Origin: Micractinium sp. NFX-FRZ
Taxonomy: Eukaryota; Chlorophyta; Trebouxiophyceae; Chlorellales; Chlorellaceae
Reading direction: 5' to 3'
DNA length: 64,000 bases
Assembly: GCA_029339195.1 (NCBI GenBank)
Contig: JAPTJF010000012.1
Location: 62,001 to 126,000 of the forward strand
A model generated the notes under the pieces. It was not told the DNA's origin. It did not search any database and saw only the letters and a program-made list of their open reading frames with translations. The position numbers and the translations under genes were made by a program. Each line of letters starts with the position of its first letter. The stretch's first letter is position 1. Below are positions 3,001 to 48,434 of the stretch, piece after piece.

Positions 3001-3484
3001 GGGGTGGAGGTGTGACCCATCAGGAACCCAACAACACAATGCCAGCGAGCGCAGCGGCAAACATGGCAGGGTGCCTGATCATGGAAGGCACTGCTGGTGC
3101 CCGTGGTGTGCTGGGGGCGCAGCACCCACAGCCGCACACGCAAACGCAACGCCGCTTCCGGCGCCCGCGCGCAGCACCCACTTTGAGCACCAGGTGTGGG
3201 CGGGGGATGACCAGCTCTGGGTCTGCGACTCCGTCCACATCACAGGCTGCCAGCATCCGCAGCACTGCCAGCGTTTCTGCGTCAATGATTCCCTTGGATA
3301 AGTCGGCCTCCAAGGTGCGCAAGCACAGCCGCGCGCGCGTGACGTCTGGCAGCTCCTCCGCTGAGCCCACCACTGCCGGCAGCAGCCATTTGTTGATGGC
3401 CTCCACTGGCACCGCGTCGCAGTCGACCAGGCGGTCAAACGCCCACGTCAGCGTCTCATCGTCATCCGCAGCCATGGCGGCCAT
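1..3484 (-). CDS. Telobox MYB-domain protein, TRF-like (3' end outside window)
   Basis: Probable telomere- or promoter-binding nuclear protein. Nine exons close in phase: 3182-3484, 2858-2973, 2542-2608, 2244-2327, 1621-1994, 1212-1437, 883-1041, 544-666 and 128-202 (509 codons). A possible tenth exon covers 1-18, so the C-terminus is missing. The last two exons join into one MYB/SANT helix set: KWEEEEVTELVRQV, then GSWAIIAKEG, then VDLKDKWRNL. VDLKDKW is the telobox signature of TRF-like and single-MYB-histone plant proteins. The N-terminus (MAAMAADDDETLTWAFDRLV) is helical and could be a TRFH-like dimerisation region, which is inference. The middle (exons 5-6) is Ala/Pro/Gln-rich, low complexity and probably disordered. 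The start at 3484 is the first ATG giving the conserved-looking helix; in-frame ATGs further upstream give only Arg/Pro-rich sequence. I am sure of the MYB domain and less sure of telomere binding. Confidence 0.75.
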
Positions 3485-24839: not shown

Positions 24840-26869
24840 ATGCTGGCCGCTTCCCCCCCTGCGTCAGCGCGGCGGCGGCAGGCACAGGTAGCGGCGGCGC
24901 TGCCTCACGGCCCCGCCCTCATCTCCATCTCCCTCGTCGTCATCGCCGGCTTCTGCCTGGGAGCCAACCTCTTTATCTTCTCCGTAGCAAGCGACACAGC
25001 AGCGGAGGGCAGCACCGCGCTAGCAAGCAACGCCGCGCAGCAGCGCCGCCTGCTCTCCGCCTCCTTCTGCTCCGCGTACGCCGACATCGTGCAGGCGGCT
25101 GCCGAGCGCGCCAAGCCGCAGCTGCTCAGCCAGGCGCAGATGCTGTGGCTGGCGGCACTGGTTCAGAGCCAGGAGGTGCTCAAGGCCCGCCCCGTCGGCT
25201 TCCTGGTGTTTGGATATGGCTGGCTGTCGGATGCGTTCCAGGCAATCAACTGCCAGGGGCGCACCGTCTTCCTGGAAAGCTCGCTGCAGCAGATTGACAC
25301 TGTGCGGCAGGACCACCCGTTCCTGGAGGTGAGGCCGGGGTACGGTGCCGGGGTGTTCATACAGCTAGGGGCAGCAAGCGCGCCCGGTCCCGCCCGCCTG
25401 CTTGCTCCGGAGCCGCACAAGAAGCTGTGCAAGTGGCTGCTGGCTGCCGGACGGGGCGGGGGCACCGTGCAAAGGGGCCACCCCTTGCCGGAGGTGATCT
25501 GGGCAGTGCCCTGGGCCGAGAGGCAACGGGCGGGGCATGGAGTTGAGGGGGGGCTTGGGGGCGCACGCACCCTTTCCCACCTGTCCTGCGGGCTGCCTCA
25601 AGTGGCTGGTGCTTCGAGCAGGGCGGGGGCAGGAGGGGGCGCAGCCTGAGCAGAGCAAGCGCGGTGCAGTGCTGGGCATGTGGGCAAGCGGCAGGCTTGC
25701 TGGCTGGAAGCCATCGGGCACAGCAGGCCTGGGAGGAATGGGAGCATGCACGCCCGCATGGTCGCACCTGCTGGCGTGGGCAGCGTACGTGTGCCCGTTC
25801 AAGCAGGCGGGCGCGCACGTGCAGTCCCTCGCCCGCCTCGCGCGCCACCCCTGCTCGCCCTGCTCACCCAGCGCTGCCCTCCTCTGCTGCCTGACCCCTC
25901 CCCCTCCCCCACTGCCTGCCCCCATCCCCTGTGCAGGTGCACCTGGTGCACTACAAGGGCAAGGCGGAGGAGGCAGATGCCTTCCTTGCCAGCCCCTGGC
26001 TCATCGATGTGCCGTCAGAGGTGGACAGCGAGTGCTTTGACGTCATCCTCATCGATGCACCGCCCGGCGCCGAGGCCGCCGGCAAGCCAGGTGCGGGGGT
26101 GGGTGGTCCTCCCGCTGCCTGCCACCCTCTCCAGCGCCCAAGCCTGGGTGGCACCTGCAACCGCGCGTGTGCAGCCGAGCCGGTCTTACCCGTGGGTGCC
26201 CCTAGCAGCCGCGCCCTGCAGCAGGGCACCTCTCCTTGCCGCCCCGCCCCGGCCCAGCGCTGACGCTGGGCTGCAAGCTGACCCCGCGTGCCTGCCGCCT
26301 GCCTGCGCCTCTGCCTGCCGCAGGGCGCCTGGAAAGCAGCTACTACGCGCTGCAGAACGCCAGGCGGTGCATCGAGGAGGGCAAGCTGGTGAGGGCAGCT
26401 TGCCTGCTGCTGCTGCCGCTGCCGCCGCCGCCGCTGCCCGCTGCTTCTGCCGCCGCTGTGACTGCCTACTTGTGGCACAAGCTCTCGCGGCGCCACGCTA
26501 GCTCCCTGCACCCGGGCTGGGCGCGCCGCCCGGCCCTCTGCGCCCCTAACCTGCTCGTTCAACCCGCCCCACCCTGCCTGCACTGCCCGCCCGCCTCCCG
26601 CCCCGGTTCAGGAGGAGGTGCTGCTGCTGCTGCACGATGCGCAGCGCCCGATGGAGCAGCGCATCGCCAAGCAGATGCTGCTGGCGCCCGACGCCAGCGG
26701 CCGCACCGCTGTGGAGACGCTGGGCACTGTGAGAGATGGGCGGATGGGTGACCTGGCGGCCTTCCGCATGCTCGCCACCGGCCCCTCCCCCGACATCTTG
26801 CTGCAGCAGCAGCAGAAGAAGCAGCGCGGCGCAGCGGCCTTCCTGCGCCGCCTCAAGGACAGGCCCTGA
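24840..26869 (+). CDS. DUF579 (IRX15/GXM-like) polysaccharide-biosynthesis protein, paralogue 2
   Basis: Four exons close in phase to 321 residues: 24840-25328, 25937-26090, 26324-26388 and 26612-26869. It is a tandem copy of the gene at 20580, with the same membrane anchor (ISISLVVIAGFCLGANLFIF) and motifs (FLVFGYGWLSDAF, TVFLESSLQQID, FDVILIDAPPG, LLLLHDAQRPMEQ). The exon borders are identical for introns 1-3. Paralogue 1 has a fourth intron where this gene reads straight through (RTAVETLGTVRDG), so an intron was lost here or gained there. The tail differs: KKQRGAAAFLRRLKDRP instead of KGRSGAAIFLKYRFN. Protein identity in exon 2 is very high, yet introns differ in length and sequence, so the duplication is not very recent. 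It is probably a Golgi enzyme acting on wall polysaccharide. Confidence 0.82.
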
Positions 26870-27422
26870 TCAGGCCTGGCCCGCCGCTCTCATCATGCAG
26901 ACAGGCTCGGCGCGCCGCCCGCCCCCGCTGCAGGGAGCGCTGCATGCTTGCCACGATCCCGCCACGCATACGTTCCCTCGCGCCACAACCAGCCCCCCTT
27001 CGCCTTGTGCTGTTGCTGCTGCACGGCAGAAGCCGCGCTGGTTGGCCCTCCCCTGCCCTGCTTTGGCCCTATGCTTGTTTCCTGTCCTCTAACCTAGTAA
27101 CTATACCCCTGTCCCCTCCCCTCAACCGTCATAAAGCATCATTCGCATCATTAGCCATCTATCATTGCTCCCACAGCTCATTCCTTGTCGCTTCTCAAGG
27201 TCCTGCAGCAACCAGGTCGCAGGCCCCCACCTGCCCCTGCATCCACCCAACCACCGTCAATGCACCCCCTTCGTCCGCCGCCCATCCCTTTTCCCCCTTT
27301 TTTCCTCGAATGGCGCGCACCGTCCCACTCACTGCCAAGTGCTGCCATTGCCACTTGCTCGCAAGCACATTTGATTGTGCGGCGTATATTAATATGTGGA
27401 CACGCCCCATGTAGTTGCTCGT

Positions 27423-27427
27423 TGTAA
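27423..27427 (+). terminator. TGTAA polyadenylation signal
   Basis: TGTAA about 555 bp after the stop of DUF579 paralogue 2, followed by ~230 bp before the next start codon. The region 27160-27400 is pyrimidine-rich UTR-like sequence. Confidence 0.5.
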
Positions 27428-27669
27428 TCCGTCCTGTGTATGCGGGAGTCAGAGAACAATCATACCCTCACGGTGCGATTGAGAGCTCTGGGCAGCGCAG
27501 GGACACGCCAGGTGCCGCTGGCAGGCGGCGCACAGCACGGGCGGCGAAAGGCAGCAAGTGAGTGAGGGGAGGTTGCCCTGGCACAGAAGCTGCACCTAAC
27601 CACCAACTCCAGATCCATGAGACCCATAGGGGCAGAGGGCGCCAGGCGGCACAGCTCAGTTGCAGACGC

Positions 27670-28655
27670 ATGCAGACACATGACCGTGCGCTGCGTGCGC
27701 CGCGCATCTGGGACTCCCGCCGCCGCCCCAAGGTGAGCCGTCCCTCCGCCTTCCGCCACCCCTCCCCTCAGCCCTCCAGCCCAGTCGCAAACCTCCGCCC
27801 CCCCGCCTCCCAGCCGCCATGCCGTCGTCGCATACCTCGCCCTCGCTGGGCTGGACGCCGCTGTGCACGTCGAAGCGCGTGTTTGCCTCCGCCATGTCTA
27901 CCGAGAGCCTGTCCGAGGAGAGCCGTGTTTTTTGCTGGGTCTCAGCGGCCCACGGCGCCTCAGCAGCATGGTCCGCAGCAGCAGAATCAGGTCCAACACC
28001 AGCAGCAGAAGCAACACCATCACCATCAGAATGAGTGCCCGATGGGCGCCCTCCACTACGCGGACTGGGCCTGCAACGACCACCGCTGCTGCGCAGAGCG
28101 CAGGTGACGGCCCCCGCTTGCCTGCTCCGGTGCTCTCTGGCGCCGCCCTGCCAGCCGCCCCTGCCCAGCCTGCATGCACCTCCCCTGCTCCTGTGAGATC
28201 CAATCCTCATTGCCAACCTGCCGGCCCCGCCCCCCACACCCCCTGCCCTCCACAGGCTGATCAGCAACTGCGTGGTGGAGGCGCGCCGGCGCGGCGTGCG
28301 CCCCCACAAGGTGTCCGCCTATGTGCGGCGCCGCCTGGGCGGGGGCCTGTGCATCTTCCGCTTCCGCTCCGACGGCACCCCCGGCTGCTCCGCCCCCTGC
28401 ACGCTGTGCGCGCGCGAGATCCTGAAGTACGACCTCAAGGTGTGCTGCGTGCTGGAGAGCGGCAAGGTCTTCTTCGGCCGCCTCACCGACCCCGGCGCCC
28501 CGCCCGCTAAGATCACCGGCGGCCAGCGCGCCTGGCTGCGCTGGTGGACCTGCTGCCAGAACGAGAGCAGCGGCGGCCGCGGAGCTTTTGACGGCGGCGG
28601 CGGCGGCAGCGGCCGGGGAGGTATCGACAGCGGCAGCGGCGGGCGGCGCTCCTAG
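27670..28655 (+). CDS. Putative zinc-dependent deaminase-like protein (CAE ... PCxxC)
   Basis: Three exons close in phase to 206 residues: 27670-27732, 27946-28103 and 28256-28655. Residues ~25-50 are Gln/His-rich. The core has HRCCAERRLI (C70-A71-E72) and, 50 residues later, SAPCTLCAREIL (P121-C122-T123-L124-C125). A (H/C)AE followed by PCxxC is the zinc and proton-shuttle signature of the cytidine-deaminase fold. The context LKVCCVLESGKVFFGRL after PCTLC fits the next strand and helix, and KITGGQRAW lies near the end. The C-terminus is a Gly/Ser-rich tail. I do not recognise the exact family, and the substrate (free nucleoside, nucleotide or RNA) cannot be told. No transit peptide is evident. 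Alternatively the motifs could be a structural zinc site in an unrelated protein. Confidence 0.6.
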
Positions 28656-28917
28656 TGCAGGCGGTACCCCTGCGGTGGGTGGAGGCGTGCCATGTCGGCG
28701 CGTACTGTACCACCATCTCACTCCTCCCTCTAGACATGTTCCTTTGTATCTTTTTGCGTTGATGCAACCCTCTAGCACCCCACTCTACATTAGCGCCGCA
28801 CAACGCACTCGCTTGCACCCAAGACGACATTCCCACCACGACACTAGCTTCTGAGTCCTCTGTGCCGCACACCTACCGACCCGACTGCTGCGCGTTTTCC
28901 TGTCCATTTTCCTGACG

Positions 28918-28922
28918 TGTAA
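28918..28922 (+). terminator. TGTAA polyadenylation signal
   Basis: TGTAA about 265 bp after the stop of the deaminase-like gene and 300 bp before the next start codon. Confidence 0.55.
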
Positions 28923-29217
28923 CCTTGCTGGCCACCAATGTGCTGCTGAATGGTCATGGGGTGGGGAGCATGGTGAGGGGCAGCATCATGCTCAGTGCGG
29001 TCCCCAAATGGCAGCGGCAAGGCCTTGCCTTCCTACGTGGCCTGCATCGCTTCTGATGCTTTCATCCGCGCCCAGCCCCTCCCACAACCTTCAAGTGCAG
29101 AACAGACGCGGCTGGAGTTCAGAGCTGGTGTGTTCGCCCAAGAACCCTGGCCCGCGGTCCCGTGCCCAGCACCTTCTTTCGCCCTTGCTGACTCTCCTTC
29201 GAATCCAAAATCCAGCC

Positions 29218-30777
29218 ATGTCGGTGTTCCAGCAGGGCACCGAGCTGGTGGGCAAGGTGAAGAGCCCGGACGGCAAAATTCAGACGCAGGAGCTGCTGGA
29301 CGTGTGCAGATCGGTGCTGCCCATCGTGGGTGAGACCTGGGCCGCGCGATGGGGCGCAGGGCTTGCTCTCCGGCGGGCAGCGGGTCCCCCTGCGGTCCTC
29401 CCGCCCCCCGCACCGCACCGCGTGTGGCTGCTGAATGCACCCTCCGCTGCTGCACCCGCACCCCTGCACCCCTGCAGACAAGCTTGGCACGGGGTTTGGC
29501 TTGGTCAAGCATGACGTGGGCGGCAACATTGACCGTCTGGCGGCCTGCGCCGCCACCAAGCCAGACGCCTACCAACCAGACGTGTTTCAGATGGTGCGGG
29601 ACGACGTGGCGGCAGGCACCCACATGGGCGGCTCGTCAGTCACTAAAGGACTGCTGTGGCTCAAGAGGTGCGCTGCATGCTCAAGCTGCGCAGCAGGAGC
29701 TGAGCGCGCCCAGGCCCTGCCCTGCCGTGCAACACATCCGCCGGTTGTCTGCACCCACTGCACCGCGTCGTGCCACCGACCTCATCACCGCTGCATAACC
29801 GTGTCGCTGAATAACTAGCGCTCACCCATGCACTCCTGCAGGGCCATGGAGTTCATTGTAGCCCTGCTGGACAAGCTGTACACCGACCGCCAGATGACCC
29901 TGTCACAGGTGCGTGCATGCGGTGTGGGCCTGCTGCCGCCCGGCTTGACTCACCGCTGCAAGCCAGCCTGCCTGGCTAGCTGCACAGCAGGGCAGGCCCC
30001 AAGCATGCCAAGGGTTCGCAGCACACGTGTTTGCAGGCCGCCGGGCGTGTAGCGGTCATGTGGGGCAGTTGTGCAGCGCGTGAAGTGGGCGCGGCGCCCT
30101 GCTGCCGGTATCTTGCTGGCACCAGCCTGCCAGCCCGTGTGCTCGCATGCCCTCACCCAGCTGCCAACCCCCTGACCAGTCACATGCACTGCCCGAACCT
30201 CACCTGCCCTGTCGCCTCGCTGGCTGCAGGCTGCCAGCGAGACGTACTATGCCACGCTGCAGCAGTACCACGGCTGGATTGTGACGGGCACCTTCACGGT
30301 GGCCCTCAAAATCGTGCCCAGCAGGTGAAGGGGCTGCTGCCGCCGTGTTCACCTGCGCGTCTGGCCACCCTGGGAGCGTGCTTCCACCGTGGCCCTGGGG
30401 TAGCCGTGGCTGGAAGAACTTGTTGACTGGCGGGCTGCAGCTGGCTGGCTAGGGAATGTGGAGTGCTGGGCCGCCACGCTGCATCCTGCCCAGCACTCCA
30501 ACCGGCAAACTGATCATGGCCCTTTGGGGCTTTGAATCCACAGCTCGACCTGCCTGGCCTGGCCCGCCTCGTGCCCTTGCTCACCTCCTGCCCTGCCTGC
30601 CCCTGGATCCACAACTGCCCCCGCAGGGAGCACTTTTTCGAAAAGGTGGGCATGCAGGCAGGGGACGAGGGCGGGATGCAGCAGATGCACGCCTTCTGCA
30701 CTGCCTTTGGCGCGGTTCTTGGGGAGGTGCAGGCGTTCCTGGCGCAGAATGGGCTCGATGATCCTGCAAAGGTGTGA
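29218..30777 (+). CDS. Glycolipid transfer protein (GLTP) domain protein
   Basis: Five exons close in phase to 204 residues: 29218-29329, 29478-29667, 29842-29908, 30230-30324 and 30627-30777. It is a single all-helical GLTP fold: LLDVCRSVLPIVDKLG, VKHDVGGNIDRL, GLLWLKRAMEFI and LQQYHGWIVTG. The Asp and Asn of the DVxGNI helix, the Trp of LLWLKR and the His of YHGW correspond to the sphingolipid-headgroup-binding residues of GLTPs, so the protein should be active in moving glycosphingolipids or ceramide derivatives between membranes in the cytosol. There is no signal peptide or PH domain. Length is typical for a stand-alone GLTP. A second, divergent GLTP gene follows. Confidence 0.9.
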
Positions 30778-33886: not shown

Positions 33887-36800
33887 ATGGACCCGGCCCA
33901 GCTGGTGGCGGCGCTAGGCGCCTGCCAGTCGCCCGACCCCGCCGTGCGCGTGGCAGCAGAGGATGCGCTCAATCAGGTGCGCACTTGCCGCCAGGCAGGC
34001 AGACCAAGCGCCATGGGCCCCCGCCCGCATGCTGCCAGCCGCCACTGGCGGCAGCGGCAGCGGCAGTGGGTCCCCTGCGCCCCCCCACTGGCACCCTCGG
34101 CCCACTTGCCCTCGCTGCCCCGGCCGCAGGTGAAGCATGCACGGGGGCATTTGGTCATCCTGCTGCGCGTGGCGCTGGAGGACAGCGTTGACCCAGCGGT
34201 GCGACAGGTGGCGGCCATCTCCTTCAAAAACCTCGTCAAGCGCGACTGGTCTGCAGAGGGTGCGTGGCTCTCTGCTGGCAGAGTGCCGGGCAGTCCAAAG
34301 CCTGCCGCGCTGCTGGGTGGTCCAGCTGCGATGCAACAGATGCCTGCTTGGCGGCGGCAGCGCAGCAATGGTGCAGGGAGCGGCTCCCGTGCGCCGCCGT
34401 CGGTTGGCAGTTGTCGGTTGGCGAGCGTGGCTCTGCCAGCATGGCCAGCCAGCTTGGGCTCTGCTACAGCTAGTGTCTCTGCTGCTGCTGCTGGTGGTGC
34501 TGCTGTTGATTGCAGTGGCCCACCGCTGCCAAGAGCCGGCCCCTGCTGGCTGCCCGCCACCGGTGGGCACAGCACCTGCCTCATTACACCCCGGCCGCTG
34601 CTGTCTTTCTGCCCCGCAGACCTCAAGCCCAGCCCTGTTGCAGAGAAGTGCACGTCCCCACTGCCGGAGCGCCCACCACACCTGTCCACAGCACTTCCAC
34701 CTGCTGCCGCCCTCCCCCTGCTGCTGTTGCTTCCTTTCTTACCACCCGCAGACGACAAGCCCGGCCCGCTGGCCGAGGAGGACAAGGCGGCGGTGCGGGA
34801 GGCGATGCTGGAGGGCGTGACGCGCGCACCGCATGCTGTGCGCGTCCAGCTGGCAGAGTGCGTGCGCAGCCTGGTGTACAGCGACTTCCCGGAGCGCTGG
34901 CCCGCCCTGCTGGGCCAGGTGCACGGCTACCTCACGTCCCAGGTGGGCTGCATGGATGGAAGGGGTGGGTGCTCTGTTTGGGATGTGGGGCGGCGCAGTG
35001 GGAAGGGACGCAGCACAGAGGGGGCAGACCTTGCTGGCTGGCCAGGTAGGCCACGTGCCGGCAGGTACAAGGAACTCGAGCAACCGCCTGTTCAGGCGAA
35101 GCAGTACTGGTAGTGTACTCATTTTTTTTTTTTGTACTCATCTACCAGCGCGACCAGGCACACGCTCCGGCGTTTTCACTCTGCTGCGCCCCCTCCCCGC
35201 TGCCTTGCATTGCCTGCCCCTGCCCCTGCCCGTGCCGCAGGACCAGGCGCGCATCGCGGGCGCGCTGACCGTGCTGCGCTTCCTGGCGCGCAAGTACGAG
35301 TTCCGGGATGAAGAGGAGCGGGCACCGCTGGAGAGCGTGGTCAACGCCACCTTCCCAGTGCTGCTGCAGATCTTCCAGGTGGGTCTCTTTCGGTGATCCA
35401 TATTCCGTTTGTTTTTGCCGTCTTTGGGGGGTGTCAGGAGGACAAGGAGGAGCGGGCGCCGCTGGAGGCGGTCGAATGCCGCTTCCCCGTGCTGCTGCAG
35501 ATCTTCCAGGCAAGGCGGGCAGCAAGGAGGGGGGTTGATGGAGTGGTGTCGTGTCTGTGGCCTTCCCATGGCTGCTTCTCATCCGTTCTTTAGATGACCG
35601 GGCATGTGCTCTGCTCTACACACGTCCTGTTCCATCGTTCCCATTCTGGCTCACACGCCTGCAGACCACAGCACACGCCCTTGGCCACACACCCCTCCAG
35701 TCCCCACCCACCGCTCCCTGCCGCCCTGCGTGCCCCAGCTCTCACCTTATCTCCCCGCTGCTTCTTTCTTCCTGTCTTTCTCCTGCAGATGCTGCTGGCC
35801 ATGGATTCCGCCTCCCCAGACCTGGCAGAGCTGCTCAAGCTGGTGTGCAAAACCTTCTGGTGAGTTCAGCGGGCACAGTGCACCCACCTCACCTGGTTTC
35901 ACCCTGCACGTTTCCTCACCCGAAGCTTTACAATCCCTGCCTGTGTTGAAGGCGTTCTGGTGTTACCTCTTGAAGAGAGGGGGCTGCTTCCATGGCCTGC
36001 GCCCCGCCCAGCGCTGCCACCCAGCGCCCTGCATGGCTGCCTGCAGCCTGGCCCACTCCTGCCAGCCTTTAGCCCCCCTATTTGGCCAGGTTTCCTTGCT
36101 GCTGGCACCACCCTGTGCAGCGCGGCCGCTGTCCATCCCCACCACTCTCAACCCGCGAGCACAGCTTGCCTCCCCTGCTGTTTCTCGTCACACGAACCAA
36201 AGCATTCTCTGCTCTCTCGCCCCCCTGCTGTTGTGTGCGCAGGTCTGCCACCTACATGGCCATCCCCACCATCCTCAACCAGGAGGCCCAGTTCACGGGC
36301 TGGATGGCCGCCTTCCACGCCCTCATGATGAAGCCGCTCCCCCTGGTGAGGCCTCCCCAGCTAGCTGTGGAAAGGGGCGGGCACTGGGGTGGGTGCTGGG
36401 GTGTGTGGGCTTGCGTTTGCAGGGTGGATGGCCGCCTCGCACGCGCTCATGCTGAAAGCTGCTGCCCCTGGTGAGCAAGGGGAACTGGGGAGCAAGGGGG
36501 AGGCGGAGCTGCTTCACGTTTTGTTTGATCGTTTTTGTGGACGGGCGGGCTGAGCAGGGCGCTGGGCGGGTGCCTCGGTCGGGGTCCCCACCTGACTGGG
36601 CGTGCTGCCGCCCTCCACGCCCACATGGTGGCACCACTGCTGGTGGGCGGGTGGGAGGGAGTGCCCAGCAGAACGGGAGCAGTGGGCAGGCGGGAGAGTG
36701 GGCAGGAAAATGGGTGGCAGCAGCCTCCGTCCCCTCTGTGTGCGGGTGAAGCAGCATTGTTGAGCAGCAAGGCAAAGGGAAGCGCAGTACGGAGAGGGTT

Positions 36801-36927
36801 TGCGTTGGGGAGAAGGGGCGGTGCCTGGTTTCTTCGACACCTAGGCACCGTGTGCTGTTCCCTCTGCTCGCCCACCCGCCACCTGCGCCTCGGCCCCTCC
36901 CTCACACCTTCCCCCTCGTCACCGCCC

Positions 36928-36958
<31 letters not shown>

Positions 36959-39900
36959 CACCTCCTCAGGACCAGCTCCCCGCCGACCCCGACGCGCGCA
37001 AGGGGTGGCAGTGGAACAAGGCCAAGAAGTGGGTCATGCACATCGCCACGCGGCTGTTCAACCGGTGAGGGCAGGCGGCGGTTCACAGTGAGGCCGTGGT
37101 TCCAAATGGGGGTTGTGCGCTGAGTGGCAGTCGAAACCAGCCACCGAGTGCGTCCTGCACATCACCACGCGCCCCTTTAATCGGTGAGGCCGCTGGTTAT
37201 AGAGGGATTTCAAGGGGCCTGCCTGCCCGCCCGCCCGCCTGCCGCCCGCCTGCCTGCCTGCGTGACTTCAACCCCAATCTGGGCAGCCAGAAGGCGCACG
37301 GCGTGCTGACACATTGCTCTCCCGCCCCTTGTGGCCCCCACCCTCCCTTCCTTGTCCGTGCAGCTATGGCGACCCCAAGCTGTGCAGCGAGAAGGAGGAC
37401 GCTGCGTTTGCAGCCCGCTTCCAGAAGGAGTGCTCCCTCACCTTCCTGCAGGCCGCACTGGCGCAGCTGGCCGTCCTCACGCAGGTGGGCCGGGGGGGTG
37501 GTCGGTGGGGTGCCTGCGGGAGGCAGGGTTGTAAAGGGACGCAGGGTTGTCGAGACTGCAGGGTGTTTGAGGGCAGCACGGGCCAAGGCGGCTGCCCGCC
37601 GGGCGTCTGCCGCGCCAATTGGCGCCGCCCGCCATGCTGCGCTTCGCCCCCCGAAGGGTCTGTGTCATTCGCTGTGTCATGTCTGCACCGCCCCTGCAGG
37701 GAGGCTACCAGTCGCCCCGCGTGATCAACCTGCTGCTGCAGTACATCACCCAGGTAGGGGGCAGTACAGCAGGCGTTTGCATGCAGTGCATCCAGTACAG
37801 CCTAGTACAGCCGTGTTGGAAGGCGGTACTGTCAAATGAAGGCGGCACATGTGGCAGCCGCAAAGCCGGGCCGGCGCGGCCTGGGGGCACCCCATACTTC
37901 TCGACCCCGCTTGGCAGCGCCTTCCTGCCCTGCCTGCGTTGCCCTGTCTGCGCCCCCCTGCCTTTTCGGCCCGATCTCTGCCCCACACCCACTGCCACCT
38001 GCCCCTCCTATCAGGTAGGCATTGGCTTTCGCCTACACCTGGAAGGCGCTGCAGCCTCCAAGTGGTCCGGACTCATTTCCTTTGCCTCTCTCCACCTCTG
38101 ACTCCGCCCCACCACAACACACCCTCCCCTACCCACCCCTGCCAGGCGCTGGCCTTCAGCCACACGTGGAAGGCGCTCAAGCCGCACGTGGAGCAGATGC
38201 TGCTGCAGTGAGTGGTTTCGGGTGCCGTGTCTTTGCCGTGGCGCTCTTGCATGGCACTTGACAAGTAGACATGGTGGCGGCTTAGATGATAGCGAGAGAC
38301 GAGGAGCACATGCTTTCGACTTGAGTGGGCCCCTCCTCAGGCTGCCCTGCACCTTGAGTACACAACCCTTCCCTGCTCCCATGCGCCCCGCTCCCCCGTC
38401 GCGTCGTCATCCCCTCTTCCACGCCCTCCCACGCTTTGCCTGCACACACGTCATCCCCCTCCCCTCCCCCGCAGCGTCGTCTCCCTGCTGCTGCGCTCTT
38501 CCGTTGTTAGATCCACACACTCCCACGCTTCACACGCACGCACCCCACCCCCACCCCACCCCCGCAGCGTCGTCTTCCCGCTGCTGTGCTTTGACGACGA
38601 GGACGCGGAGCTGTGGGAGGAGGACCCGCAGGAGTACATTCGCAAGGTGGGCCTTTAAATTTGTTGATGTTCGCGTGAACTGCTTGCCTTGGAGTCCAAG
38701 GGGGCGGGCTGTGGGGGGACGACCCGCATGAGTGCATCCGCAAGGTGGGGTGGGGGGCACTTGGTGCACGTAGCAGGTCGGGTGGAGTCCAAGGGGGCGG
38801 GCTGTGGAGGGACGACCCGCAGGAGTGCATACGCAAGGTGGGGTGGGGCGCCAAGTGAAGCCCTAGTATGCTCACCTGCGTGAGGGGGGAGGGAGTTTGG
38901 CACGCTCTGTGGGAGGAGGACCCGCAGGAGTACATACGCAAGGTGCGCCTGTCCTGCTTTTCACTTGGTAGTCTATTGAACTGCTTGCCTTGGGTAGAGT
39001 CCAAGGGGGCGGGCTGTGGGGCGACGCCCGCAACCCGCTGGGCAACTGACAGCGGCGCTTCCCTGCCGCCTTGCGACGGCATCATCACGCAGGACGCCTA
39101 CTCCTCCTCTTTTTAAACAATATAAACAATAGTTGCAATGTAATCACCAATGCAATCTTACTGTACCGCAGGGGTACGACATCATGGAGGACATCTACTC
39201 CCTTGCTAGGCCTCCTCCTGTGTACTGCCTCACTTTGTGCCTGTAACATGTACTGCCTTCCACCTGCTCCGTACCGCAGGGTACGACATCATGGAGGACA
39301 TCTACTCCCTTGCTAGGCCTCCTCCTGTGTACTGCCTCACTTTGTGCCTGTAACATGTACTGCCTTCCACCTGCTCCGTACCGCAGGGTACGACATCATG
39401 GAGGACATCTACTCCCTTGCTAGGCCTCCTCCTGTNNNNNNNNNNNNNNNNNNNNNNNNNNNNNNNNNNNNNNNNNNNNNNNNNNNNNNNNNNNNNNNNN
39501 NNNNNNNNNNNNNNNNNNNNNNNNNNNNNNNNNNNGGGTACGACATCATGGAGGACATCTACTCCCTTGCTAGGCCTCCTCCTGTACTGCCTCACTTTGT
39601 GCCTGTAACATGTACTGCCTTCCACCTGCTCCGTACCGCAGGGGTACGACATCATGGAGGACATCTACTCCCTTGCTAGGCCTCCTCCTGTACTGCCTCA
39701 CTTTGTGCCTGTAACATGTACTGCCTTCCACCTGCTCCGTACCGCAGGGGTACGACATCATGGAGGACATCTACTCCACCAAGACCGCCGCCATGAACTT
39801 CCTCCACGAGCTGTGCAAGGCGCGGTCCAAGGGCAACCTCGACATGCTCATGGCGGTGAGTGGCGCAGCTTGTTTTCGGTGCTCTGTGTGCTGCTGCGGG

Positions 39901-42900
39901 TGCAAGGGCAGCCTCGGCATGCTCGTGGCGGTGAGCGGGGCGGCGTGCAGCTGCGTGCCGTTTTGCTTGGGAGTGTGGCTTTTGTGGGTGGCGCGTGCGT
40001 GAGGGGGCCTCCTCCAAGTGCAACCTGGGCATGCTCGTGGCGGCGAGTGCCCTGGGCAGCGGTGTGGGATGGTGTTGTCTATTGCTTTGATTGCGTGGGC
40101 GCCAAGGGCAGCCTGCTCTGGGCTGTGAGCTAACCCTCGCGGTTGTATGAGTGGGTGGGTCAAATCTGAACCAACCTGGTGAATCTAAACCTCATGTAAT
40201 TTCCATTGGTTCTTGGCCGCCGTGCAGCACCTGGTGGAGGCGTGCTGCACGAGTACAAGGCGGCGCACCCTGGCTGCTTCACTCCCCTTTGCCTTGCTCC
40301 TCATCCCACCATCTGTCTTGTCCTGCTGCAGCACCTGGTGGGCGTGCTGAACGAGTACAAGGCCGCGCACCCGGCTGCCCCGCTGGCGCTGGCCCGCAAG
40401 ATGGATGGCGCGCTGCTGGCCATCGGCACGCTCTCAGACGTGCTCAAGGTGGGGCGGGCGGGCTTCCATAGGGGGGGAGCCTTATTTGGAAGAAAGGGCC
40501 CGTTTGCTTTGAGATTCTTGGGAGAGGGATTGGAAAGGAGGTAGCTGGAGAGAGGAGATAGAGCAGACGTGCAGCTGGAGCCAGTGCCGCTCCTCATCCT
40601 GCTCCGCCCCGCCTGCCCTACCACTCGTCTCTCCCCCTGCCCACCTGCCGCTGGGAGAAAAGCATCCCTGTTTTGAGCAAGCTGAAGGCTGTGCTGCTGC
40701 ATGCGATGCCCCCCTCTCCAACTCCCCCCCCTGCCACCGTGCCCTCACCTCTCCTCGTGCAGGAGAAGAAGCCGTACAACGGGCAGCTGGAGCCGATGCT
40801 GCTGCAGCACGTGGTGCCCCTCTTTGACTCGCCCCACGGCCACCTGCGGGCCAAGGCCTGCTGGCTGGCGGGGCACTATGCTGACATCGAGTTTGGGGAT
40901 GGGCAGGGCAAGGGGCCGACCTTCTCGGCGCTGCTGCACCGCGTGGTGGCGGCCATCGGAGGTGGGTCTAGTTGTCAATGAGGGTGGCGCATTGAGTTGG
41001 TTTTGTAGCGGGGGTGGGCACGGTGTGTGACGGGGAGAAAGGTGTAGAGGGGGTGGTTGGCTGTTTGTGCTGTTTATGGGGCGGGCAGGCTGTGCCTCTG
41101 GCCGCAGGCCCTTTGCCCATCTTTCGCCCAGCCTGGTTCACGTCGCTCGACCCCCCAGGTGCCCCGTGTGCATCGGTGCTGCCACGCACGTGCGGCTGCC
41201 CGCCCCCAAAGGCCCCTGCGGCACCTCGTACTCGATGCCGCCGCCGTCTCCTGCCTGCACACCTCCGCCCTGCACATCTCCCCGGATAGGGTTCCCTGGT
41301 TGCTCAGTGTCAGAGGTTGGATACTTCTTCGGCACTGTTAAATGGCGAAATCCATGAAGCACCCCGTTTCCATGCACATCTCCCCACGCTGCCAAGCGGC
41401 GGAAACCCCGCAGCCAAAAGTCCGACGGCGGCCACCCCCCCATTGGCCTGCCGCAAGAAAATCAGGGCTGCCAGAGCGAGCTGGGAGGCATCACGTACTG
41501 ACTGGGTGGGCCTCCCCTGTGGCCACACAGCAATTTCAGGCCTCCCACACCCCCACGTGGAGCGTGCCATGACAACCACGGCACTGAAACTTATTTTCCT
41601 GCACCCCACGCCAGCCCCTGCATGCTATGCTGCACCCCACCACTCGGCTGCTGCCTTGAGCGCTGCTGCACGCTGTCCGTTGCAGCACTCCCCCCTCCCC
41701 TCCCTACACACGTTTTGCTGCTGGCAGTGCGCCCCTTCCTTCCCTTTATTATCATGCCCTCTGCCATCGTCCCTGCCTCCATGCACTGAAACCCGTGTGT
41801 CCCCCCGTTGAAACGTGCAGACCCCGAGCTGAACGTGCCGCCCTCTCCCCGTGCTCCCGTCTTCCCCCCGCACACGCTGTCCGCTCCCCCTGCCTTTCAC
41901 CACCCACTCTGCTCAACCCTGCTGCAACTGTGCAGACCCCGAGCTGCCCGTGCGCATCATCACCACTCCTCCCTGGCCGCTGCCTGCCTACCCCCACCCT
42001 GCACGCCTCTGCTGCCTGCCCAACCCCACCCCGTCGCTGCCGCCCCCCGTTCCGCCCGCCCGCTGGATTGTGCAGACCCGGAGCTGCCAGTGCGCATCGA
42101 CGCCGCCCTGTCGGTGCACACACCCCCCCCCACCCACCCCGCCGAACACACACGTTTTTTGTTGCTCACCCCTTCTGCTCTACCCCGTTGGATTGTGCAG
42201 ACCCCGAGCTGCCCGTGCGCATCGACGCCGCCGTCTCTGTGCGCTCCTTCCTGGATGCTGTGGAGGAGGAGGACCTGGACCCTCTGCGCCCGCTGGTGCC
42301 CCAGCTGCTGCAGCAGTTCCTCACGCTGTCCAACGAGGTGAGGGGGTGGCCGGGTGGGTGGGACCCGACTCTTCTCCAACCGCGTGGGTCCCGGGTGCCT
42401 TGTCGCCCATCCGCCCACGAATCTCCTGTTCGCCTCCACCGTGCGCGCCCATCCTGTTTGTCCAATGTGTACTGTTTAAACATGTTTGCAGGCTGAAACA
42501 GAGGACCTGGCACTCTTACATTGAGAGCATGCAGGTCCAAGATGACACGGCGCCCTGTGCCCACCCAACTTCCCCTCCCTTTCTGATCTCTTCTCAACCC
42601 CCTCATCAAACCCACCCCCGCAGATCGACAACGAGGACCTGACCTTCTCCCTTGAGACCGTGATCGAGCGCTTCCGGGACGACATGGCCCCCTACGCCGC
42701 GGGCCTGTGCCAGCAGCTGGCCCAGCAGTTCTGGCGGATCACCAGCGAGGGGGAGGGCGGCGAGGGAGGGGAGGACGGCGAGGACGGCGGCGACGACGGT
42801 GCGTCGGGGGGCAGTTGGTCTGGGTGTGGTGGGTGGGGGTGGGGGTGGGGGAGGGGGAGGAGGGAGGGAAGGATAGGGAGGACGGCGGCGATGACGGTGC

Positions 42901-45900
42901 GTGGTGGAGGGGCAGGGGGGCTCTGGGTTCTGTGTGTGGAAGGGGGAGGGGGGGCCGGGCAGGGGACGACGGTGCGTGGGGGAGGGGCGGTTGTGCTTGC
43001 TTGGCTGGCTGGCAAGCGCCTGGCCATCTGGCTGTGTGGCTGTCTAATCGCCTGGCTGGCAAGGCAGGCGGGTGGGGGCCTGCGCATGCTGTGCACCGGC
43101 CACCACCCCCTCGTGCCCCCCCAGGCCAAATGCCGGCGCCCCGCCGCCTCCCTCACGCTTTGCATGCTGCGGGTGCTCCCGCCACGCCCACCGCTGTACC
43201 CACGCCGTGCGTGCAGGCGCCCTGGCCGCCTATGGCGTGCTGCGCGCGCTGAGCACCGTGCTGGAGAGCATCCACGCGCTGCCGCACCTCTACGCCCAGG
43301 CAAGCAGGGGGTGCACGGGGCGGGGCGGGGGGTCCCTGCCAGGCACTGCCTGCCCCGTGGTGGAGCTACCACTGCCCCTGTCATACCAAGATTTGTCTTC
43401 CCCGCTCTGGCCCCCGCCCCCCCACCACTTGCAGATGGAGGACATTCTGTACCCGATCCTGGAGAAGTACACCTCCACCGACGGGCAGGACATCTTTGAG
43501 GAGGTGCATGGGGGGGCCTTGGGAGGCGCGCGCGCGTGTGTGTGTGTGTGTCACTCCCCCCGCACACTGCGTCCGAAGGGCCGCCCCCCCGAGCGCGGGG
43601 CGCCCGCCTCCCCGGCCCCCTCCCCCCCCCCCGTGCCGTGCGTGTTTGTGTGTGTGGCTGGGGGGACGTGGGCGGCCACCCGAACGGCTGGGCCAGCGCG
43701 GCGGGGGCCTGGGTTGTGCGTGTGCCTGGGGTGCGGTGTCCAGCGGGGCGTGGGCGGCTCGCCTGATAGGCGGCTCACCTGGAGTGAATCTGTGTTTCCA
43801 AATTTTGTTACTTGTTAGCACATCCTCCACTTCGTCATTCAATACGTGAAGCACATTGCTGTGCAAACCGCCAGCTCACCGGGTGTATGCCGCTGCCGGT
43901 GTGCACCCTGCACGCACGGCGCCGCCTTTCCCCTGCCTCACCGGCTGTGCTGCCCTCCCACCCCCTGTACCAACTCTGTTCCCCCGCCCTCTTTGACCCG
44001 TCTCCTCCCCCCCCCCCACTCTCTTCCCTCCCTCCTCTCCACCCCGCCCCTACCGCAGGTCATGCAGCTGGCCACCTACCTCACATACTTTGCACCCCAG
44101 ATCTCCCCGCGCATGTGGGCACTCTACCCGCGCATGCTGCAGGTGCGGGCCGCTCAGGGAGGGGCATGGGGGTGGGCAGGGTGGAGGCGGAGTGTGAGGG
44201 AGGGGAGGCGCGCAACTGGGTGGGAAGGCAAGTGTGGGTGGCCGGGGCGGGGCGCGGTCGGCCACGCGTGCACCCCCACGCACCACCCATACACCCGCCC
44301 ACCCCACACCGTTGTTTTGGTGTTTTTTTTCCTTACGCCGCCACCCACGCAGTGCGTGACCGACTGGGCGATCGACTACTTTGAGGAGGTGCTGCTGCCG
44401 CTGGACAACTACATCAGGTGGGGTGGGGTTGTATCAGAACAGAATGTAAGACCACTTGTTTACGCATTGTGGGAGGGTGCTGCTGCTGCTGGACAACTGC
44501 ATCAGGTGGGGTGGGCTCCTGAGTCGCCTGGTACATCCCCTTTACACATTTGGGAGGCGCTGCTGCTGCTGCTGATGCTGGTTTTGGGGTTTAGGAGGTG
44601 CTGCTGCCGCTTGGCAACTACATCAGGTGGGGTGGCGCTTGCATACATAAGCAGGGTTGCGTACATGTATTGGATGGTAGGCTGTTGTTGCTCAAGAATG
44701 TGAAAGGAGCGCCTCTCCTAGCACTCGCCCTGCACCCCCCGCCCCGCTGCCCCCGCCGCCCCGCAGCAAGGGTACGGACGTCTTCCTGTCCAGCCAGGCC
44801 CCCAACTACCTGGCACTCACAAACCAGGTGCGGTGGGTGCAGGGGTGCAGGGGGAAGGCTTCTGTTGGGGGCGGCAGTGATCCTCCCGAGCACCAGGGGC
44901 TGTGCGCACCGTTTGGCAGTGCCTAGTGTACACTCGAGCGCTTCATGGGCTCGTTTCCCGCGCGGCAGATGCTGGAGCATGTTCCGTCGAGGGAGGGGGA
45001 GGGGCACCCAGAGCCCCCGGGTGTGTCCGCCCATCTGTGTTCCCTCTGTCAAACCAACCGCGTTCCGAGCTGGTCCTGATTTGCTTCTGCTGCAGATGCT
45101 GGAGAAGGTGCTGTCGGGGGAGCGGGTGCCCCAGGGATTCAGGCCACCCGTGCCTTCTCCGGCTGACCTCGAAACAACACTTGTTGGATGCGTTCCCCCC
45201 CCCGCAGATGCTGGAGAAGGTGCTGTCGGGTGACGGTTACCCGGAGGACCAGGTGACCTGCGCCCCCCGCCTCATGGGCGTCATCCTGCAGCACTGCAAG
45301 GGGCGGGTGAACGACTGCCTGGGTGAGTGGGCGGGCGCGGGCGGGCGCGGGCGGGCAGGAGGGGGTGGGTGGTTGGAGGGCAGGGGCAGCAGCGGCTGGT
45401 CACCCCCTGCAAGTACATCTTCTGTTCCACGCTGCGCCGGCTGGCGCCCGGTGTTGAGACTGCCAACCCACCCAGCCACTCAAATGACGGCCCCTCGGTC
45501 GCTCACACACCCCGCCCCACCCCATCCCCGCCCCTGCAGGCCCCTACCTCTCCCTGGCGCTGCGCCGGCTGGCCCCCGGCGTGGAGAGCCAGGACTTGGG
45601 GGACGCGCTGATGTGCGTGCTGGGCGACGCGCTGTACTACGACGCTGCGCTCACGCTGGGCGCGCTGGGGGCGCAGGGCGCGCTGGGCCAGTCGCTGCAG
45701 GCGCTGTCCACAACCATCTTTGCGGCGCGCAAGTCGGGTGAGGGGCTGAGTGGGCGGGGCGTTTGAAGCTGGTTGGGGGCAGGGGTGTGGGTGGGTTGCC
45801 GCTGTCCACAACAACTATCGCCGCCCGTTGCAAGTCAAGTGAGCGCCGCCGACCGGGCCGCGCATGGCGATACACATCCGTGTCTTGAGTACCGGTTTGG

Positions 45901-46776
45901 GCACAGGGCGTGGGACGCAGCTGCCTGTGTTGCCCACAAGCTGGGGTGGGGAGGGGCCTGCAAGGGTGCCGGCGGGCGTCGCTCCCGCGCACCGCATCAC
46001 TTGCACCCCCCTTTGCAACGTGTGCTTCCGCTTGCAGGCAAGATGAAGCACTACACCTCCCCGCGTGAGAAGAAGGTGCTGATCCTGGGCCTGGTGGCGC
46101 TGCTGGCGCTGCCAGACGCGCAGCTGCCGGCAGAGGTGAAGCCCGGCATGCCGCAGGTGGGTGGGTGTACGTGTGGATGTGCTTTTGTGAGTGCAGGATT
46201 GGGGGGATGTAGGGCTGCAATGGTATAGCAGACCCTCCGATGCGCAGCTGCTGGCGGAGGTGAAGCCCGGCATGCCGCAGGTGTGGGGTGGGTTCGTCAT
46301 GTGTTTGTAGAGTGGCGGGTGTGATGCAGTGTGCTGGGGTGGTGTAGGGAAGTTTCTAATCCCCCCGGCCATTGAGGTGGAGCCAAGCATGGCACAAGTG
46401 CGCTAATATGGCACAAGCGCGCTAATGCATGTGTCTAGGATCGGATTTGGTGCATGGGAGGGAGGGTGGAGGGCTGCCCGATGGATGGCTGCCAACCGAG
46501 ATGCACCAAAGATCCATAAAGGATGGGGAGTGGGCCTCTGCAGTCCTGCAGCTGATGTTGTTGCCTCGGTGCCGTTGCCGCAGCCGGTGCCTCACGCCAT
46601 GCCGCGCTGCCCCACCTCCCCCTCCTCCCACGTCTCCCCGCCAGGTCACCTCTGCCATCCTTCGGCTGCTGCTGGCGCTGAAGCAGCAGCAGGAGGAGCA
46701 CAAGGGGCACGGCAGCGAGGGCAGCAGCGGAAACGAGTCGGGTGAGCGGGTGGAGGCGCTGGGAGGATGAGGCCGG

Positions 46777-46808
<32 letters not shown>

Positions 46809-48434
46809 TTCTGGACTTACAGCGAGCGCCAGCGGGCACCGGGCGGCGGGGTGGGTGGGTGTCAGGCTGTCAGCCGCGCTGCCGCCCGGCTGGCGACTGG
46901 CGTGGTGAAGGGGCGGGGGAGCGGGTGTATGGCCGCTGCGGCCCTCGTCCCAGGCATTGCACCACCCTCCACCCCGCTTCCTCTGCCCCAATAGACCCAC
47001 CCTCAACTTGCCACCACCAACCCCCCTGCAGACCTTGAAGAGGAGTCCGAGGATGGGGAGGAGTCTGTGGACTTGGGGGACAGCGACGACGAGGTGGACG
47101 AGGCCTACCTCAGGCGAGTGCACGTGTACTGCCCTGGTTTGGGGCTCCATGCTGCCGCCTGTGGGTTTCCAAACCCCTCTGTTTTGGGTTCTTTAGATGG
47201 TCGGGGCCTGGGGGGCAGTGTTGGCGGGGTGGGACGTGGCGTACCTCAGGCACGCACTGCTGTCTTTGAGGTTCCACACTCTTCTGTTTGGGTTAGTTAG
47301 ATGATGAGGACCTGGGGGAGAGAGATGATGAGGTGGATGAAGCATACCTCAGGCAAGCGGACCATAAGTGCATGCGCTGTCCTGGTTGGGGCTATACACA
47401 GATCGCTTTGGGGTTTCTTGGGGTGGGAAGGAGGACTGCATGCCGGCGCGCTCTGCTTGCCTGCCTGCCGCCGCCTCACTGACCCATGGCTGCGCCCGCC
47501 CCTCCCTGCCCTGCCCTGCCTGCAGGCGGCTACAGCGCATGGCGGCCAAGAAGGCGGCTGGGCACAGTGACGACGACGAAGACAGCGAAGATGAATGTGA
47601 GTTGCGGCTCCTTGTCTTCAGCTCTTTCCTTCACGGTTGCGCATGGCTTGTCGTTGGTGTGCAGCTGCTGGCGGGCGCGGCCCCTGAGAGATACGGGTCA
47701 TGCTGCACATGTGTGTGTCGTGAATTGCATCGACAGTGAGGTGGAAGGCTGCGATTGTACGCTGCTCCATCGATCGCAATGGGGTGTTTCTTGGCCCCCC
47801 TCTGTGCCACTTCTTCCCCATCCGTCCCCTTGCTCCTCAACCCTCACCTTTCCCTGCCCCTCCCCCTTGCGCCTCAACCCTCCCCCTCCTGCCCCCTCCG
47901 CCCACAGATGACGAGTACTGGAGCGAGGACGAGGAGGAGGAGGTGTCGTCGCCCATCGATGCAGTCGACCCCTTCATCTTCTTTGCGGGTACGATCTCTT
48001 GTTCCATTGTTCCCTTGCTTGGGGGTGGCTTTGGGTGTGATTTAACAGGCTGGGTAGGGGCGGCTGGGGTGAAAAGGGGGAGGAGCTGCGGAAGGGCCCC
48101 CTCCCGTGAATGCTGTTAATCCCCTTGCCTAGTGCATGCGCGCACGAGCTGCTTCCCATCAAGCCACGGATCAGTTGAGGGCAGGTTTGGGTGTGATGCG
48201 CCGGGGTGCCTGTACCCCCACCCCACCCCCCCGCCCCCTGCCCTCCCCGCAGAGACGCTGCACACCATCCAGCACGGCGACCCGCAGCGCTTTGCCGGCC
48301 TGGTGGGCGGGCTGGACGCCAATGTGCAGGCGGCGGTGCAGGGGATGATGCAGTACGCGGCGGAGCTGCGGCAGGAGCAGCTGCAGAAGGCGGCTGCGGC
48401 GGCGGCGGCGGCGGCCAACGGCCAGGCGGCGTGA
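33887..48434 (+). CDS. Importin-7/8 family nuclear transport receptor (SAD2-like)
   Basis: Twenty-nine exons close in phase to 1058 residues, the usual length for importin-7/8. Exon starts are 33887, 34130, 34752, 35241, 35789, 36243, 36970, 37364, 37700, 38146, 38568, 39748, 40332, 40763, 42201, 42624, 43217, 43435, 44059, 44353, 44767, 45208, 45540, 46038, 46645, 47032, 47526, 47908 and 48253. The N-terminus ([20 protein letters not shown], then [16 protein letters not shown]) is the Ran-binding importin-beta N-domain. HEAT repeats follow, with [23 protein letters not shown]-type links, DGQDIFEE and [19 protein letters not shown] as in plant SAD2. Residues ~920-990 form the acidic C-terminal loop ([32 protein letters not shown]). 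The protein carries ribosomal, histone and signalling cargo into the nucleus. Introns 17 and 26 use GC donors. Many introns contain partial copies of exon edges, so automated annotation would probably over-predict exons. Array and assembly gap at 39172-39747. Confidence 0.92.
35437..35508 (+). other. Possible cassette exon of importin gene (exon-4 echo)
   Basis: 72 bp flanked by an AG acceptor (TGTCAG) and a GC donor (CAG|GCAAGG), in phase 0 on both sides, open for 24 codons ([13 protein letters not shown] then FPVLLQIFQ). It is a diverged copy of the second half of exon 4 (35305-35378). Inclusion would insert a duplicate helix without frameshift. No evidence of use beyond sequence. Confidence 0.45.
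39172..39747 (+). repeat. Tandem ~107-bp array of an exon-12 edge echo
   Basis: Units begin at 39172, 39280 and 39387, then after the gap at 39536 and 39642, and lead into true exon 12 at 39748. Each unit is acceptor ACCGCAG, the first ~30 coding bases of exon 12 ([10 protein letters not shown]) and then ~75 bp of intron-like sequence including TGTAAC. Spacings are 108, 107, 106 and 106 bp. Only the last copy continues into the real exon; earlier ones run into an in-frame stop (CLCLTLCL-type tail ending TAA). Confidence 0.9.
39436..39535. other. Assembly gap (100 N)
   Basis: Exactly 100 undetermined bases inside the ~107-bp tandem array. The round length is a placeholder, so the true copy number is unknown. 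Confidence 0.95.
47301..47352 (+). other. Possible mutually exclusive alternative to importin exon 26
   Basis: A 52-bp copy of the 3' part of exon 26 with acceptor GTTAG and donor AG|GCAAGC. Phases on both sides equal those of exon 26, and the frame is open ([18 protein letters not shown]). It could replace exon 26 in the acidic loop. Splicing in addition to exon 26 would give a stop at once, so only exclusive use preserves the frame. Confidence 0.4.

Follow-up and report, generated by a model that had tools for sequence, protein, structure and literature searches.

Direct copies of exon edges in the introns of an importin-7/8 gene of Micractinium, and their probable kinship with exon stuttering

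Why should the introns of a gene contain sequence that resembles the borders of the exons beside them? The question is raised by one gene of the green alga Micractinium sp. NFX-FRZ, which lies in the window (the whole stretch of 64,000 nucleotides analysed) and was modelled as follows.

33887..48434, plus strand: importin-7/8 (SAD2-like) gene; hand-built model of 29 exons with an open frame of 1058 aa, supported by homologues

All 28 introns have CAG acceptors and GT donors, except for GC donors at introns 17 and 26, and the closest named protein to the product is SAD2 of Micractinium conductrix (86% identity). The reading frame is consistent with that of homologues, and consequently the copies described below are not missing exons.

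Similarity between introns and exons was scored in two ways. A strict test used exon sequence only (SW +2/-3, score at least 32) and found matches in 17 of 56 adjacent exon-intron pairs, compared with 0 of 756 non-adjacent and 0 of 812 inverted pairs; the 17 pairs sit in 14 of the 28 introns (4, 5, 6, 7, 9, 11, 12, 14, 16, 20, 21, 22, 24 and 26). A softer, gapped test included the junction, with queries of at most 50 nt of exon plus 8 nt of intron and about 50 null comparisons each. Here 22 of 56 junction tests beat all of their own nulls, where chance would give about one, and the positives fall in 19 introns. An earlier note on this DNA had listed 17 introns with exon-edge copies. All 17 exceed every null when the junction is included, and introns 5 and 13 join them, introns 13 and 15 being the weakest of the 19; introns 2, 10, 15 and 23 of that list score below the threshold of the strict exon-only test. 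The copies are these, identified by the softer test unless otherwise stated.

34613..34669, plus strand: intron 2, weak copy of acceptor and exon 3 start (softer test z 6.2; fails strict test)
35447..35509, plus strand: intron 4, copy of exon 4 end at offset 134, with a GC donor after it
36130..36164, plus strand: intron 5, copy of an exon 6 segment lying 14 nt from the exon start (strict and softer tests; absent from the earlier list)
36422..36475, plus strand: intron 6, copy of exon 6 end and donor
37124..37189, plus strand: intron 7, copy of exon 7 end and donor
37271..37304, plus strand: intron 7, copy of an exon 8 segment close to the exon start
38017..38065, plus strand: intron 9, copy of acceptor and exon 10 start
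38418..38590, plus strand: intron 10/exon 11, 93-bp unit in 1.9 copies across the exon 11 acceptor (tandem-repeat and softer tests)
38475-38497, plus strand: intron 10, copied exon 11 start within the 93-bp array
38704..38950, plus strand: intron 11, three copies of exon 11 end and donor at offsets 99, 192 and 296
39163..39777, plus strand: intron 11/exon 12, acceptor and 30 nt of exon 12 repeated in tandem, period 106/107 (tandem array)
39896..40042, plus strand: intron 12, two copies of exon 12 end and donor at offsets 75 and 187
40223..40277, plus strand: intron 12, copy of acceptor and exon 13 start
40553..40591, plus strand: intron 13, weak copy of an exon 14 segment (z 4.4; below strict threshold; absent from the earlier list)
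41803..42117, plus strand: intron 14, acceptor and exon 15 start copied three times in succession
42488..42531, plus strand: intron 15, weakest copy, acceptor and exon 16 start (softer test z 3.9; fails strict test)
42847..42902, plus strand: intron 16, copy of exon 16 end and donor in a low-complexity stretch
44476..44634, plus strand: intron 20, copies of exon 20 end and donor at offsets 88 and 209, with a weaker third between
45092..45143, plus strand: intron 21, copy of acceptor and exon 22 start
45405..45459, plus strand: intron 22, copy of exon 23 start region
45800..45843, plus strand: intron 23, weak copy of exon 23 end and donor (softer test z 6.7; fails strict test)
46239..46288, plus strand: intron 24, copy of exon 24 end and donor at offset 124
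47209..47357, plus strand: intron 26, two copies of exon 26 end, both with a GC donor after them, as at the real junction

Reading order is always kept, as had been claimed: every scored copy is direct, those of donor type following the exon end and those of acceptor type preceding the exon start. Most copies diverge by 10-20% from the source exon. Fresh arrays of full units over an acceptor occur with periods of 93, 106 and 107, and a run of 100 N (39436-39535) interrupts the freshest of them, that of intron 11/exon 12. The contrast between adjacent and non-adjacent exons under strict scoring confirms that the exon-edge echoes of importin are real.

The pattern extends beyond this gene. Other genes were predicted with a gene finder whose training used importin first and its own output afterwards; once trained, it recovered 27 of the 29 exons of importin and added false ones (34 predicted). 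Apart from importin, most gene models stand as predicted; three were looked up: a predicted prolyl-tRNA synthetase and a 2-oxoglutarate dehydrogenase E1 gave strong matches, and predicted gene 34 had no Pfam match. Across a 314-kb sample, matches were found in 85 of 1080 adjacent exon-intron pairs, against 23 of 9301 pairs that are not adjacent and 5 of 1080 that are inverted. Counted by contig in genes with at least three introns, which covers 576 of 582 introns, echoes mark 74 of the 477 introns of contig 12, which carries importin, and 3 of 99 on contig 1; a held-out third contig gave 3 of 79, so that the pattern is seen on three contigs. The earlier remark that other genes of the window do not show it at comparable density holds within the window, where none of 85 introns in eight other predicted genes with at least three introns reached a score of 34 (10 of 33 did in the machine-predicted importin model), but the pattern recurs in other genes of the same contig. 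The share of echo introns is uneven between genes (p 0.03, 32 genes) and tracks GC3 (rho 0.50, p 0.004, uncorrected). Neither intron nor exon GC correlates with it.

Our best explanation, which we consider likely, is exon stuttering by local tandem duplications in an alga of the Chlorella/Micractinium type. DNA blocks of about 50-160 bp would be tandem-duplicated locally and repeatedly inside genes. A block lying wholly within an exon would alter the protein and be removed, and one wholly within an intron would leave two copies that both decay. A block across a splice junction would leave an intact exon and, inside the intron, a duplicate of the exon edge with its splice site; the duplicate would drift neutrally while selection holds the source exon. 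Junction-straddling copies would stay recognisable for longer because their exon half is conserved by selection. Each event would also lengthen the intron and plant a decoy donor or acceptor. Consistent with the intron growth that the earlier note proposed, echo-bearing introns are the longer ones (median 390 versus 255.5 nt).

Several observations speak for this explanation. The copies are direct and adjacent to their sources, both edge types are represented, several copies span whole units, and repeats confined to introns exist in the same genome. Intron-only repeats appear in 63 of 472 introns at a score of at least 34 (control 1), and in 68 in a further count without a complexity filter (control 1); with a complexity filter on both classes they appear in 29 of 472 (control 0) and exon-edge copies in 67. 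Among tandem arrays with a period of at least 40 (34 rows, some overlapping), 16 are intronic, 13 straddle an exon border, 4 are exonic and 1 is intergenic. A preference for junctions suggested by ungapped counts (55 exon-intron and 25 intron-intron pairs, strict complexity filter) was dropped, since gapped searching turns up far more repeats confined to introns. Neutral decay of the copies, and the duplication machinery itself, would be the inferred parts of the scheme; the spliceosome presumably passes over the decoys, perhaps through exon definition.

The geometry of the copies fits less simply. There are 114 copies in total; offsets refer to the nearest copy per junction with an edge of at most 25 nt (85 copies), and flanks to the 77 with an edge of at most 10 nt. 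The offset is tight (median 112 nt, IQR 98-128), which counts against tandem duplication when set beside complexity-filtered intron-only repeats (median 28-72), as does the uneven distribution of echoes among contigs. It correlates with intron length (rho 0.43); no tie was found to host exon length (rho 0.14, p 0.21) or to reading frame (flat modulo 3). Similarity continues past the splice site into the intronic flank in 36 of 77 copies, and in 24 of 77 the copy takes in 70% or more of the intronic unit. Simulated tandem duplication and decay (donor-type only, with small indels, so that larger rearrangements would lower the expectation) leaves flank similarity in about 90-95%; consequently, simple tandem duplication with uniform decay fits only partly. 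Copies with exonic identity of at least 0.93 show flank similarity in 14 of 20 cases, and one copy is identical over 43 nt and yet has a different flank. The earlier idea of local tandem duplications decaying in introns is partly supported, borne out by direct, junction-straddling copies and fresh arrays and weakened by the flanks.

These same features would be expected if copying were anchored at the junction, through breaks linked to transcription or splicing, or through repair from a template, so as to place some 37 nt of exon edge with its splice site about 110 nt away, short-tract conversion by the exon perhaps refreshing the copy. The narrow offsets agree with such a process, as do the alikeness of donor and acceptor types (exonic span median 37, spacer 72-75) and the drop of similarity toward background within about 6-20 nt beyond the junction. 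Changes in the copies also lean toward GC, the class having changed at 114 of 919 AT sites versus 47 of 980 GC sites in the first two codon positions. However, most of the intronic unit is present in those 24 copies, intron-only repeats and arrays indicate that junctions are unnecessary, and larger rearrangements outside the simulation, speeding intron turnover, could erase flanks too. We regard anchored copying as unlikely. Slightly more doubtful is its broadest form, that splice junctions drive intron growth in green algae and birds alike through a process linked to transcription or splicing, the exon edge of about 37 nt and its site being recopied on both sides at steps of about 110 nt, with GC-biased short-tract conversion refreshing the copies.

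That the copies are functional, as alternative exons or as decoy splice sites under selection, is very unlikely. Of the donor copies 44 of 47 retain the splice site, as do 22 of 30 among the acceptor copies, both copies of intron 26 keep the GC donor, and a single stop was observed versus 3.6 expected, which leans weakly against neutral copies. The copies are nevertheless not constrained as coding: gap lengths disrupt the frame in 25 of 28 cases, offsets ignore the frame, and mismatches by codon position amount to 7.9, 11.0 and 15.4%. In tandem exon duplication and mutually exclusive exons, exon sequence is likewise repeated in a neighbouring intron; the alga copies only the exon edge. Donor-type copies begin with an acceptor-like signal at their 5' end no more often than background (2% versus 3%), and acceptor-type copies do not end in a donor-like signal (0% versus 4%). 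Mutually exclusive or other alternative exons were consequently rejected, the copies having no second splice signal and being often frame-broken. Least probable of all is an artefact, in which repeats were mis-joined or true exons mistaken for intron: the N run in the freshest array, the largely unchecked models and a bird screen that dropped 77 of 192 genes, mainly for annotation errors (PMC12954441), are outweighed by a 10-20% divergence that mis-assembly does not create, by the frame of importin and by recurrence across three contigs.

Returning to exon stuttering, the earlier note knew of no described name for the phenomenon, but one was published in February 2026: Hron et al. (Genome Biol Evol, PMC12954441) described exon stuttering, or sequence stuttering, on chicken dot chromosomes. 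In chicken, the exonic part measures 20-187 bp (median 36) with a median of 4 copies, more than 90% of sources lie at an exon border, stuttering clusters on certain chromosomes and in genes rich in GC, intron length differs between individual birds, and an unpublished remark adds gerbils. We reran the published screen on the alga (threshold at least 42.1 bits) and obtained 41 proximal, 14 distal (in 5 introns, as scored by the screen) and 0 inverted matches, a profile similar to that of chicken but sparser. The exonic part spans 21-53 (median 30, n=41), 30 of the 41 matches (73%) lie at most one base from the exon border, and 28 of 32 expansions hold a single copy, four holding 2-5, with weaker copies adding more. 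Both systems copy a lateral part of an exon with its donor or acceptor, directly, into the adjacent intron; in both, exonic parts are tens of bases, sources are mostly at borders, intron-only repeats occur and the setting is GC-rich. Against a median of 4 copies in chicken, the alga has mostly one, 14 of 55 matches are distal, and the copies are older, evenly offset near 110 nt and known from one assembly. The exon-edge copies of this alga thus probably belong with exon stuttering, a kind already named in birds.

Other routes to intron DNA resemble it less closely. Introners are intron sequences common to the introns of many genes, in algae among others, whereas algal intron similarity here is to the neighbouring exon; comparison of prefixes and suffixes of 472 sampled introns with one random other each gave 1 match scoring at least 34. 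Repair of paired nicks or breaks in plants yields short direct tandem duplications of tens to about 100 bp, blocks like those of the alga, in a description of which splice junctions are not part. Intron gain through tandem duplication of genomic AGGT (reviewed in PMC3443670) likewise duplicates gene segments with splice signals, but it makes a new intron from exonic sequence, whereas the algal introns already exist and grow. Moreover, that route would make intron ends equal to the opposite exon edges, and the algal copies lie well inside: donor-type copies begin a median of 72 nt past the donor and acceptor-type copies end a median of 75.5 nt before the acceptor. Among the literature matches listed, which cover few subscription papers, none reports exon-edge copies in algae, and no second paper using the exon-stuttering terms was found in the literature searched.

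A genome instability described so far in birds (with gerbils by unpublished remark) is thereby extended to a unicellular alga with a small genome, a setting where the mechanism, rate and fate of stuttering could be tested. The copies hint at a wider and concrete way for introns to grow, some 100 bp at a step, while gathering decoy splice sites, and they pose for splicing the question of how a near-identical donor or acceptor some 110 nt away gets ignored. Gene finders may also be misled by them. Ours put an in-frame repeat of about 20 residues into the prolyl-tRNA synthetase, which solved relatives do not have.

Exon-edge copies, decayed direct repeats of a neighbouring exon edge and its splice site, are confirmed in the introns of the importin-7/8 (SAD2-like) gene. 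This gene encodes a complete frame of 1058 residues and lies in a window of ~65% GC (bases 62001-126000) on contig 12 of an assembly of 66 Mb and 838 contigs. Among named proteins, the nearest comes from Micractinium conductrix (86% identity), which places the organism among Chlorella/Micractinium-type green algae. Features of the gene are as follows:
33887-48434: importin-7/8 gene, 29 exons
38418-38590: fresh array at a junction, 93-bp unit
39163-39777: freshest array at a junction, 106/107-bp units
39436-39535: run of exactly 100 N within the freshest array
43300-43434: intron 17, GC donor instead of GT
47114-47525: intron 26, GC donor instead of GT

We aligned every exon locally against every intron in a strict test (exon sequence only, score of at least 32). 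Matches appeared in 17 of 56 neighbouring exon-intron pairs, spread over 14 introns, while the 756 non-neighbouring pairs and the 812 inverted comparisons gave no match at this score. Introns 2, 10, 15 and 23, which belonged to the 17 introns listed in the earlier note, fell below threshold in this exon-only test. In a softer, gapped test with gentler scoring, the query was the exon edge extended by 8 nt into the intron, set against null comparisons for each junction. Here 22 of 56 junction tests exceeded every one of their null comparisons, and all 17 listed introns were recovered together with introns 5 and 13 (19 of 28 in total). Both types of copy described previously were seen with reading order kept: donor-type copies (exon end plus donor) lie downstream of the exon end and acceptor-type copies (acceptor plus exon start) upstream of the exon start, all in direct orientation. 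In intron 26, the unusual GC donor is retained in both copies.

The earlier note's statement that the pattern has no described name is wrong. It is a known kind, described on chicken dot chromosomes in February 2026 under the terms 'sequence stuttering' and 'exon stuttering' (Hron et al. 2026, PMC12954441), here in a lineage very distant from birds. In that paper, lateral exon parts with splice sites are copied to the adjacent intron in 190 of 5,572 dot-chromosome introns (3.4%), the mechanism is addressed by speculation only, and the authors did not see stuttering in other vertebrates except in GC-rich gerbil genes (data not shown). When the bit-score threshold of the chicken study (at least 42.1 bits) was applied to 656 introns here, it returned 41 proximal matches in 31 introns (4.7%) and no inverted match, but also 14 distal matches in 5 introns, and a single copy in 28 of 32 cases. 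Adjacent direct copies with a splice site are shared by both systems, and the exonic medians are 36 bp in chicken and 30 nt here; more than 90% of chicken sources lie within one base of the exon border, and 73% do so here. We found no other paper using the stuttering terms and no earlier algal report of exon-edge copies in the literature searched.

The copies are not private to the importin gene, yet they are uneven across the three contigs sampled. A hidden-Markov gene finder, with the importin gene as its first training set and its own predictions as the next, called 48 genes and 582 introns in 314 kb and recovered 27 of 29 importin exons exactly. For genes with at least three introns and a match score of 34, matches occurred in 85 of 1080 neighbouring pairs, 23 of 9301 non-neighbouring pairs and 5 of 1080 inverted pairs, and 77 of 576 introns carried an echo: 74 of 477 on contig 12 and 3 of 99 on contig 1. 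In a held-out sample of 40 kb from contig 3, 3 of 79 introns did so, and adjacent pairs again matched more frequently (3 of 151) than non-adjacent ones (2 of 1034). Among the 32 genes having eight or more introns, the share varies beyond chance (p 0.03). As previously noted, the other genes of the window lack comparable echoes (none among 85 introns in eight genes with at least three introns). Outside the window, contig 12 has them in further genes, including those for prolyl-tRNA synthetase and 2-oxoglutarate dehydrogenase E1; look-ups of the predicted proteins support both identifications. In the machine model of the synthetase (L006-L007, contig 12:43045-50760, - strand), a stuttered exon copy is called as an exon, and the model thereby gains an in-frame repeat of ~20 residues that solved relatives lack.

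We catalogued 114 copies in all. Among those with an edge within 10 nt (n=77), median lengths are 37 nt for the exonic part and 72-75.5 nt for the spacer, alike in both types. The offset of the nearest copy per junction has a median of 112 nt (IQR 98-128; edge within 25 nt, n=85). A possible reason for so narrow a range is selection against any decoy lying too near the real splice site. Introns with an echo are longer (390 versus 255.5 nt), a difference to be read knowing that longer introns also give matches more room. Donor copies keep a splice site in 44 of 47 cases and acceptor copies in 22 of 30, and the opposite end carries no second splice signal above background. Mismatches between exon and copy amount to 7.9, 11.0 and 15.4% at codon positions 1 to 3; 25 of 28 gaps break the reading frame, and one stop was observed against 3.6 expected. 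Among copies with an edge within 10 nt on contigs 12 and 1, class changes at codon positions 1 and 2 affect 114 of 919 AT sites (12.4%) versus 47 of 980 GC sites (4.8%). This lean toward GC exceeds what an intron GC of 65% suggests, and GC-biased conversion or mutation is a possible cause.

The earlier note proposed that copies would arise by local tandem duplication and then decay inside the intron. Tandem duplication explains their adjacency, orientation, inclusion of the junction and the fresh arrays. The 100-N run within the freshest array is an assembly gap, so that the assembled copy number may not be the true one. Among 472 introns, intron-only repeats occurred in 63 (control 1), many of them of low complexity, and exon-edge copies in 71 (control 2), so that the raw counts of the two are similar. 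After one complexity filter on both classes the counts were 29 and 67, respectively, an excess for which the simplest reason is slower fading of copies anchored to conserved exon. The proposal is mostly right but incomplete. The simplest tandem duplication would also copy the intronic half of the unit. We recognised this half in 36 of 77 copies, in 24 of which the similarity covers 70% or more of it, whereas a neutral-decay simulation of donor-type copies left it detectable in about 90-95%; this counts against the simplest form. Even among 20 copies with exonic identity of at least 0.93 it is recognisable in 14, and one copy matches its exon perfectly for 43 nt yet carries a different flank. 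The missing flanks could stem from larger rearrangements that turn over intron DNA, or from conversion of the copy with the exon as template.

Other repeats mark the window. The gene predicted at 61-10568 (- strand) encodes two nearly identical tandem blocks of ~100 residues. A G-rich minisatellite at 6834-7597 (84-bp unit, 9.1 copies) lies within a predicted intron, and GC skew in the window is strongest (0.506) in the bin overlapping it (6001-8000). In the protein predicted at 20579-30777 (+ strand), a domain of ~200 residues is internally duplicated and forms two similar halves; the sequence after them looks unrelated and contains one stop, so that the predictor possibly fused several genes.
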